33,825 nt of DNA from Acidimicrobiales bacterium. GTDB taxonomy: Bacteria; Actinomycetota; Acidimicrobiia; Acidimicrobiales; UBA8190. Each line of letters starts with the position of its first letter. Position 1 is the first letter of the stretch. The stretch spans positions 1 to 33,825 of the forward strand of contig JARLGQ010000003.1 in assembly GCA_031292675.1 (NCBI GenBank), written 5' to 3'. The notes beneath the pieces were generated by a model. It was given only the letters and a program-made list of their open reading frames with translations, made no database searches and was not told where the DNA came from. Below, piece by piece: positions 3,760-32,512 of this stretch. Position numbers and translations under genes: made by a program.

Positions 3760-3954
3760 TCACGCGACCGGGTAGTGCTCGACCACGGCATCTTCCCCAG
3801 GAAAGTACATGCCTTCGTGCCCGTCGTCGCTCCAACGCACCCGGTACGGCGGGGCTCCTTCTGGGCCCTGGACGGCCAGAATGACCGCGTCGCGATCGGA
3901 CTCTCCGACACGGTGGCCACGTACTACGATTTTGTCTCCGATGGCTGCTCGCAT
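3760..3954 (-). CDS. DUF1918 domain protein
   Basis: 64 residues from ATG 3954, 8 nt after AGGAGG; the in-frame upstream ATG at 3999 lacks this support. The sequence MRAAIGDKIVVRGHRVGE, then the PYRVRWSDDGHEG stretch and a closing FPGEDAVVEHY, is a near-standard DUF1918 domain. DUF1918 is a small actinobacterial SH3-like barrel domain, also found fused to other domains; its biochemical role is not established. The gene diverges from uspA over 284 bp containing several palindromes. A second, diverged copy of the fold occurs at 32189-32512. Confidence 0.9.
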   Translation of the reverse strand: MRAAIGDKIVVRGHRVGESDRDAVILAVQGPEGAPPYRVRWSDDGHEGMYFPGEDAVVEHYPVA

Positions 3955-4040: not shown

Positions 4041-4074
4041 CACTATTGAAGCCTCGTTCTCATCATGCGTCCGG

Positions 4075-4116
4075 AGGTCCCGGGCGGGGGGACCTTCGGC
4101 TCTATCGGTGCCCCCC
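4075..4116. promoter_or_regulatory. overlapping inverted repeats upstream of uspA
   Basis: AGGTCCC (4075-4081) and GGGACCT (4089-4095) are perfect 7-bp arms separated by 7 bp. Overlapping them, GGGGGG (4086-4091) can pair with CCCCCC (4111-4116), which is followed by TTT. The two pairings exclude each other, so this could be an operator plus a leader hairpin or weak attenuator ahead of uspA. The GTCCC..GGGAC order is the reverse of the arm order in the mycobacterial DosR box. Confidence 0.35.
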
Positions 4117-4136
4117 TTTCGAGAGCATGGTGGCGG

Positions 4137-4298
4137 GAGACCTACCGGACCGCCGGTTCTGGGCGCTCGGTGCCACCGGGTCATCTGGACAGGTTCACGA
4201 TGGTCGCGCACTCGGAGTGGTCAAAGGAGGGACGCACAATGACCAAGACTGCACAGCAAGGAAAGGCCGGAGGGCCTCGAGACCTACCGGACCGGCGG
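4137..4298 (+). repeat. 20-bp direct repeat spanning the uspA start
   Basis: GAGACCTACCGGACCG at 4137-4152 recurs at 4279-4294; over 20 bases (4137-4156 versus 4279-4298) there is one mismatch. The second copy encodes the RDLPDRR segment just before the first beta strand of UspA. The first is in the leader, where one frame also reads GDLPDRR. It may be the scar of a local duplication. Confidence 0.5.
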
Positions 4299-4718
4299 AT
4301 CGTCGTCGGCGTGGACGCGTCGGAGCAATCGAAAGAGGCATTGCGATGGGCGGCGCGTTACGCCGAAACTAGCGGTGCGAGCCTCGATGTCGTGCACGCC
4401 TGGCATGTCTCGGACGAACATGCGTGGCTGCAGAGCCTGCCTCCCCCCGCCAACCCGACGGACGTGGCTCGGAAAGCACTCGCGAACGTGGTCGATGAGG
4501 TGGTGGTCCCCGGAACGGTCCAGGTGCGCAGCTCTGTTCTCGAAGGACACGCCGCACACGTTCTGGTGAAGGCCTCTCAGGGTGCCGACATGCTGGTGGT
4601 GGGGAGCAGGGGGTTCGGCGGATTCGACGGGCTGTTGCTCGGGTCGGTGAGCGGGCACTGTGCGATACACGCGCCGTGCTCGGTCGTGATCGTCCGACCC
4701 GCCGCTGCGGTGGGGTAG
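4239..4718 (+). CDS. universal stress protein, ATP-binding UspA type
   Basis: 159 residues from ATG 4239, preceded by AGGAGG 8 nt upstream; a longer in-frame start at 4065 is not supported. A single Usp domain is visible: the first strand RIVVGVDASEQSKEAL carries the adenine-contacting Asp, and near the end GSRGFGGFDGLLLGSVS matches the nucleotide motif G-2x-G-9x-G-S, so this is the ATP-binding subclass. The last strand is CSVVIVRP. The first 20 residues (TKTAQQGKAGGPRDLPDR) are an extra polar leader. Usp proteins act in the cytoplasm in starvation, hypoxia and stress survival. It diverges from the DUF1918 gene and is followed by the NfeD-slipin pair on the same strand after 158 bp. Confidence 0.93.
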   Translation: MTKTAQQGKAGGPRDLPDRRIVVGVDASEQSKEALRWAARYAETSGASLDVVHAWHVSDEHAWLQSLPPPANPTDVARKALANVVDEVVVPGTVQVRSSVLEGHAAHVLVKASQGADMLVVGSRGFGGFDGLLLGSVSGHCAIHAPCSVVIVRPAAAVG

Positions 4719-30495: not shown

Positions 30496-30645
30496 CCGGC
30501 CCGACCGGGTGCGCCGAGCAGGACCGCGCAGGGGGAGACGGCTCGGGCCCTGTCGAGGAGCCGCAGGGGCTGCATCCGCTCACGGCAGGCTTGGGCGTAG
30601 CGTGGCGGTTGGCGCGCCGGGCAGCCGGAGCCGATGGAGGGTCAG

Positions 30646-30849
30646 ATGAGCGACAACGAGACAAAGGGTTCCGGGCTGAGCGTGCTTGACACCGCGCTCG
30701 TGGTGGCGGCGGTGATCGGAGGAATCTTCGTCGTCCTCTGGCTCGCTCACGCCGTGCTGGGCCTGGTGCTCTTCGCCTTCAAGGTCGTCATCCTGGTAGT
30801 GGTGGTGGCGGTGATCGTGCGGATCGTCCACGCCTTTTCGCGTCACTAG
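30646..30849 (+). CDS. small membrane protein, unknown
   Basis: 67 residues from ATG 30646, GGAGGG 4 nt upstream; an ATG 12 nt earlier is inside the ribosome site. The layout is a short polar N-terminus (SDNETKGSG), then two hydrophobic helices: LDTALVVAAVIGGIFVVLWL and VLGLVLFAFKVVILVVVVAVIV, ending RIVHAFSRH. No family recognised. It diverges from glnD (150 bp upstream) and converges on a glycosyltransferase gene. Clear ribosome site and helices make it a likely real gene of unknown role. Confidence 0.6.
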   Translation: MSDNETKGSGLSVLDTALVVAAVIGGIFVVLWLAHAVLGLVLFAFKVVILVVVVAVIVRIVHAFSRH

Positions 30850-32067: not shown

Positions 32068-32139
32068 GGCGGCGTGGCCGAGTGGTTTAGGCAGGGGCCT
32101 GCAAAGCCCCGTACGGCGGTTCGATTCCGCCCGCCGCCT
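32068..32139 (+). tRNA. tRNA-Cys (GCA)
   Basis: 72 nt forming a cloverleaf: acceptor GGCGGCG/CGCCGCC, anticodon stem GGGGC/GCCCC with loop CTGCAAA (anticodon GCA), T-arm GGCGG-TTCGATT-CCGCC. The discriminator base is T, as expected for tRNA-Cys. CCA is not encoded. Confidence 0.95.
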
Positions 32140-32188
32140 CTGGTGACCGGGTCTTTTCGATCGGTGCCCGACAAGACAAGGAGACGCA

Positions 32189-32512
32189 ATGGCCGTAGTG
32201 GGTGACAGGGTTCAAGTTCCTTCGAAGCGGGTGGGTCAGCTGCCCCGAGAAGGGGTCGTCATCGGCGTGACCGGCGGCATGTTGCGGGTGAAGTGGTCCG
32301 GGGGGGAGGAGTCCTCGATGACTCCCTCGATGGGATCCCTGATCGTGGTGGGAAAGGTCAAGGTCGGCGTCGAGAAAGGCGTCCCGGCGGCAAAGGCGCC
32401 TTCGAAGAAGGCCGCCAAGACGTCGGCGAAGAAGCTCGCCAAGACGTCGGGCAAGGCCGGATCCGCAAAATCACCGGCCAAGCGGTCAGGGGCGCACAAG
32501 CGAGGCCGGTGA
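32189..32512 (+). CDS. DUF1918-like domain with histone-H1-like Lys/Ala tail
   Basis: 107 residues from ATG 32189, AAGGAGA 5 nt upstream. Residues 1-57 (MAVVGDRVQVPSKRVGQLPR, GVVIGVTGGMLRVKWSGG, EESSMTPSMGSLIVVGK) resemble a DUF1918 small barrel: same VGD..V and RVKWS..G..S pattern as the gene at 3760. The following 50 residues are a low-complexity basic repeat in AAKTSAKKLAKTSGKAG style, ending KRSGAHKRGR. H1-like tails bind DNA or RNA without sequence specificity, so I infer a nucleoid- or RNA-associated protein. It starts 49 bp after tRNA-Cys, perhaps in its transcript. Function of DUF1918 is unknown, so the role is open. Confidence 0.72.
   Translation: MAVVGDRVQVPSKRVGQLPREGVVIGVTGGMLRVKWSGGEESSMTPSMGSLIVVGKVKVGVEKGVPAAKAPSKKAAKTSAKKLAKTSGKAGSAKSPAKRSGAHKRGR

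Follow-up and report, generated by a model that had tools for sequence, protein, structure and literature searches.

In mycobacteria, the DUF1918 family has been connected with starvation or hypoxia; structures have been solved for some of its members and, to our knowledge, no function has been assigned to it. The surface of one member, Rv2302, was reportedly described by Buchko et al. in 2006 as mainly negative, and PDB entry 2A7Y is the structure of this protein. A structure of a second member, Rv0569, has been published (Kim et al. 2014, cited in PMC11203133). Rv2302 contains a five-strand antiparallel sheet and a mobile loop with an arginine whose importance has been proposed (PMC6151718); its C-terminal helix packs against the sheet. 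Rv0569 is listed among the dormancy genes in a review (PMC11203133).

Lysine-rich tails have been described on several other bacterial proteins. The tail of mycobacterial HupB is needed for nucleoid association (PMC5676037). Lysine repeats stabilise actinobacterial TopA on DNA and confer processivity, and they occur on Ku and HrdB as well (PMC7398561). The CarD protein of M. xanthus is comprised of an N-terminal RNAP-binding region, which does not bind DNA, and an unfolded HMGA-like tail, which does; CdnL, a homologue of the N-terminal region, has a Tudor-like module of five strands (PMC4182748).

The window analysed here is the whole 33,825-nucleotide stretch of DNA from the genome of an Acidimicrobiales bacterium (G000, a MAG of about 86% completeness and 7% estimated contamination). 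It contains a gene in which a DUF1918 barrel is fused to a lysine-rich tail, as well as a second DUF1918 gene. The features are the following:

3760-3954, minus strand: stand-alone canonical DUF1918 paralogue of 64 aa, acidic (net charge -4) and tail-less (Pfam, 92.7 bits)
4065-4718, plus strand: Usp gene, divergent from the DUF1918 paralogue (Pfam, 100.6 bits)
32068-32140, plus strand: tRNA-Cys with GCA anticodon (ARAGORN), regarded only as a neighbour, without a role in the function
about 32178-32183, plus strand: likely ribosome-binding site AAGGAG (read from the sequence)
32189-32512, plus strand: gene of the DUF1918-tail protein P0001, 107 aa (open reading frame; stop codon 32510-32512)
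32189-32359, plus strand: short-hairpin DUF1918 barrel, residues 1-57 (Pfam, hhalign, AlphaFold with a block pLDDT of 86-92 for residues 1-50 in the full-length model)
32360-32509, plus strand: Lys/Ala-rich, H1/HupB-like tail, predicted to be disordered, residues 58-107 (composition, charge, pLDDT)

The interval 32068-32512 therefore runs from the tRNA-Cys to the stop codon of the P0001 gene (ARAGORN and the list of open reading frames), and 48 bases separate the tRNA from the start of the open reading frame. A purine-rich site is also found in G001 (same genus) and G008 (same family). The scan for promoters and terminators was uninformative: it gave a single weak terminator-like site (32139-32151), where 0.5 would be expected. 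Both the fusion and the stand-alone DUF1918 gene beside usp had been proposed in a sequence-only reading of the window, and both are real; besides the P0001 gene, the source genome contains three canonical DUF1918 genes.

P0001 matches the DUF1918 model PF08940 over residues 2-50 with 26.7 bits (E 4.3e-6, Pfam scan), which is above the gathering cut-off of 24 bits. The short-hairpin subfamily to which it belongs aligns with canonical DUF1918 with an hhalign probability of 99.1% (E 9.4e-19, 55 columns), and the main difference between the two profiles is the absence of about four residues from one hairpin. P0001 is thus similar to Rv2302 and Rv0569 in its Pfam match, its profile homology and its five predicted beta strands, and differs from canonical DUF1918 in the shorter hairpin and in a barrel net charge of +3 instead of about -3. 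In the position of the C-terminal helix of Rv2302, P0001 has its basic tail. A PDB sequence search with P0001 or with the short-type profile gave nothing meaningful, and the canonical paralogue retrieves 2A7Y in such a search. No family was found in NCBIfam. The Pfam scan of P0001 gave no KOW hit with an E value of 1 or less and no match to the HU fold (PF00216), the HU genes being located elsewhere in the genome. Comparison of the P0001 gene with its orthologues from G001 and G008 gives a dN/dS of about 0.12-0.17 for the barrel, which is under purifying selection; the tail is under selection as well, with a value of about 0.29 against the same-genus orthologue. The open reading frame at 32189-32512 is a real gene because of these values.

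The tail (residues 58-107, 50 aa) is composed of 26% lysine, 22% alanine, 12% serine and 12% glycine, contains no aspartate and one glutamate, and carries a net charge of +15 compared to +3 for the barrel. The original description of a 50-residue Lys/Ala/Ser tail is borne out, with glycine as a further abundant residue. Lysine makes up 1.7% of the residues across 310 called genes (360 kb of genome G000), and at this frequency the 11 lysines among the last 40 residues of P0001 have a binomial P of about 5e-11. A comparable tail is absent from the other 309 genes, in a census that is approximate, the genes of the sampled 360 kb having been called by a simple script. Because the tail is the only one among the 310 genes and lysine is so rare in them, it is not due to chance. 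It evolves faster than the barrel, yet its composition is maintained among relatives, and this in a high-GC, lysine-poor genome.

The closest counterparts of the tail seen in the same genome are those on HU. Both HU genes of G000 (L179 and L180) encode C-terminal tails rich in Lys, Ala and Arg, and the L179 tail resembles that of P0001 in its fractions of lysine (0.24 vs 0.26) and alanine (0.25 vs 0.22). Actinobacterial HU proteins (HupB, HupS) and P0001 have in common a Lys/Ala tail of disordered type and similar composition, whereas the folded part is the HU fold in the former and a DUF1918 barrel in the latter. The tails of chlamydial HC2 and eukaryotic histone H1 are Lys/Ala-rich and disordered too. 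This resemblance is compositional only: P0001 has no match to the HC2 profile PF07382 in the Pfam scan, and its relative L088 reaches 24.8 bits, below the cut-off of 40. No match to Lsr2 was found in G000, a MAG about 86% complete, in which the two tailed HU proteins are present. Near the HU gene L179 (G000:C199) there is an open reading frame of about 115 aa consisting almost wholly of Ala/Lys/Arg repeats (MAVKRARKTAKRAPARKAAK...).

Based on these findings, we consider it somewhat probable that the DUF1918 barrel is held on nucleic acid by its tail, DNA being the likeliest target, and that the barrel supplies the specific contact. We infer that the Lys/Ala-rich tail would bind nucleic acid non-specifically, in the cell most likely chromosomal DNA, and would keep the barrel on the nucleoid, a role that the tails play for the folded parts of HU, TopA and Ku in actinobacteria. 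The contact made by the barrel would be either with nucleic acid, by way of the basic loop 1, or with a protein partner, since SH3-like barrels also bind proteins.

A survey of tail-bearing DUF1918 proteins, suggested together with the first description of the gene, showed that such tails recur. The survey scanned 297 genomes from the order and 396 from the phylum, with subsequent reading of the open reading frames, and found DUF1918 in roughly one in five of the sampled genomes. A C-terminal Lys-rich tail is present in 23 of the 176 distinct DUF1918 proteins, a biased rate because the sample mixes scans with both profiles; the Pfam-only scan of the phylum gave, by reading, tails in 10 of 82 DUF1918-bearing genomes. 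The tailed proteins belong to 11 families of Actinomycetota, both within the order (f1, f26, f30, f39, f47 and f49) and elsewhere in the phylum (f74, f75, f78, f106 and f109). One protein of the 176, L239 (G364:C11), has a Lys/Ala-rich N-terminal extension, the mirror image of the C-terminal tail. Despite differences in sequence and in length, which ranges from 15 to about 149 aa, the positive charge of the tail is kept in all tailed relatives.

A minority of DUF1918 proteins carries the tail, mostly members of a divergent subfamily in which the hairpin is short and the barrel neutral or basic, while the canonical proteins, including the paralogue beside usp, are mostly acidic and tail-less. 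The median net charge of the barrel is +1 in tailed short-type, 0 in untailed short-type and -3 in untailed long-type proteins. Untailed short and long barrels differ in charge with a P of 5e-12, and tailed and untailed barrels of the short subfamily do not differ significantly in it (P 0.29), in values that ignore relatedness. Among the 18 genomes of the order with a short-type barrel, 12 have the tail and six do not, and one further copy (G009:C123) is cut by the end of its contig. Since the tail is missing from these six genomes, the barrel can do without it. On the barrel tree the distribution of tails requires at least 10 changes (mean of 23 after shuffling), at least 8 when branches with SH-aLRT below 80 are collapsed and at least 4 when those below 90 are; the tree is built on about 60 columns, which makes these counts rough, and it fits both gain and loss of tails. 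In three close barrel relatives from Acidimicrobiaceae bog MAGs (L024, L030 and L031, the latter two with assembly gaps (N) inside the barrel) a short Arg-containing end replaces the tail, possibly as a result of tail loss.

The same strands (residues 6-10, 20-28, 31-36, 41-44 and 52-56) are present in two AlphaFold models, one of full-length P0001 and one of the barrel alone; block pLDDT is 80-92 for residues 1-50 and 46-64 for the tail, and the input alignments contained only 6-7 rows. P0001 is accordingly predicted to be a five-strand SH3-like barrel followed by a disordered tail, in agreement with the five-strand sheet of Rv2302. A C-terminal helix like that of Rv2302 is not predicted in P0001, whose model is of low confidence after residue 58. 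This helix is a feature of one solved member and lies outside the 58 positions of the Pfam model, and hence does not define DUF1918. Loop 1 of the barrel contains K13, R14 and R20, the last of which is invariant in the short-type alignment; these basic residues may correspond to the arginine in the equivalent mobile loop of Rv2302.

The comparison with KOW and SH3-like folds, also suggested earlier, gave matches of this kind, none of them significant. In a Foldseek search of the PDB, SH3-like domains come first (PWWP with ssDNA, Tudor, KOW of Spt5), several of them taken from complexes with nucleic acid or chromatin, and further matches include two ribosome chains of 6rm3 and the SH3-like parts of NdhS and myosin. 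TM scores to KOW, Tudor and PWWP, normalized by query length, are 0.5-0.65, and the best E values are 0.014-0.018, none being below 1e-3. Because NdhS and myosin, whose SH3-like parts have no nucleic-acid role, score similarly to the nucleic-acid domains and nothing reaches an E of 1e-3, the predicted fold fits nucleic-acid or chromatin binding without proving it.

In architecture, the closest analogue of P0001 is Myxococcus CarD, in which a Tudor-like N-terminal module is combined with an unfolded, HMGA-like tail equivalent to that of H1. In a CarD-like arrangement the barrel would bind a protein of the transcription machinery, RNA polymerase for example, and only the tail would touch DNA. 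As this precedent shows, a protein built in this way may bind another protein with its barrel and DNA with its tail (PMC4182748), and some of the stronger structural matches of P0001 are Tudor domains. However, no sequence homology was found, the Pfam scan of P0001 gave no CarD_CdnL_TRCF match with an E value of 1 or less, and CarD is a larger protein with a further domain between module and tail. We regard this arrangement as possible but rather unlikely.

DUF1918 is found fused to other domains as well. L192 (G601) combines it with HTH_3/HTH_31 and Pyridox_ox_2 according to Pfam, and L195 (G584) and L201 (G630) resemble this fusion by eye. All three come from the phylum scan, where this combination of DUF1918 with an XRE-type HTH and a pyridoxamine-oxidase-like domain was met in several genomes of a single family, which are large (6-9 Mb). 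In four genomes DUF1918 is fused to an Rv2632c-like domain, which was recognized by Pfam in L015, L017 and L241 and by eye in L242. A fusion to DUF1508 is present in L113 (G094:C42). Rv1738, to which Rv2632c is related, is a putative hibernation factor (PMC9386245); in vitro it inhibits the translation carried out by Mtb ribosomes (PMC7324553). The HTH fusion points to DNA and the Rv2632c-like fusion to the ribosome.

The latter fusion, the effect of Rv1738 on translation, the place of Rv0569 among the dormancy genes and the two ribosome chains among the good fold matches would all agree with a stress factor associated with the ribosome or with RNA, whose basic tail binds rRNA and whose DUF1918 domain works with factors of the hibernation type. 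Such a function is unlikely for P0001: the Rv2632c-like fusion occurs in no tailed member, and the nearest analogues of the tail seen in G000 are those of HU.

It is very unlikely that the tail is a by-product of the expansion of Ala/Lys codon repeats and has little or no function. Near-perfect repeats in the relatives L104 and L105, an imperfect 24-nt tandem repeat in the window copy and the wide range of tail lengths are what such expansion would produce, but the rarity of lysine in the proteome, the dN/dS of the tail and the retention of its charge in all tailed relatives argue against it.

The adjacent tRNA-Cys, which the sequence-only reading had mentioned, is real; its position is incidental and reflects inherited synteny at the family level. 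In G001 and G008 the whole block is conserved, including the glycosyltransferase, PhyH-like, GlnD-like and L,D-transpeptidase genes, the tRNA-Cys and a tRNA-Val. The flanks fetched for the remaining tailed or short-type relatives contain no tRNA. The possession of this block by relatives also argues that the contig belongs to the source lineage of the MAG, its estimated contamination notwithstanding. Outside the family no neighbour consistently recurs beside tailed genes, the exception being one block common to two genomes of another family. At 30634-30849 the window encodes a 71-aa probable membrane protein, which matches no Pfam family above cut-off and the position of which is conserved in three related genomes. 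That the P0001 gene acts together with this tRNA-Cys, or is processed from it, is practically out of the question, although only 48 bases lie between them and three genomes of the family share the arrangement: within the flanks fetched, the pair is confined to this family, where the entire block of genes is conserved.

The tether to nucleic acid, most likely DNA, thus remains the preferred reading for P0001. The sequence-only reading went further and took the fusion to suggest that DUF1918 proteins act near nucleic acid. It is supported in part: the H1/HupB-like tail is real and recurrent, HU of the same genome is tailed and fusions to HTH and Rv2632c-like domains exist. The recurrence of such tails across the phylum suggests that the family may well act near DNA or RNA, but the extension to DUF1918 at large is weak because tails occur in a minority and the canonical members are mostly acidic and tail-less. 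Tentatively, and with more doubt than confidence, the tailed proteins may form an undescribed actinobacterial class of nucleoid-associated proteins, in which H1-like tails were added more than once to a stress-related barrel that would serve as a docking module for transcription or translation under stress. The open-access part of the literature that names DUF1918, as far as its available text extends, treats neither tails nor nucleic acid, and an earlier description may exist. The recurrent H1-like tail, together with the fusions to HTH and hibernation-factor-like domains, provides a consistent hint as to where DUF1918 acts.
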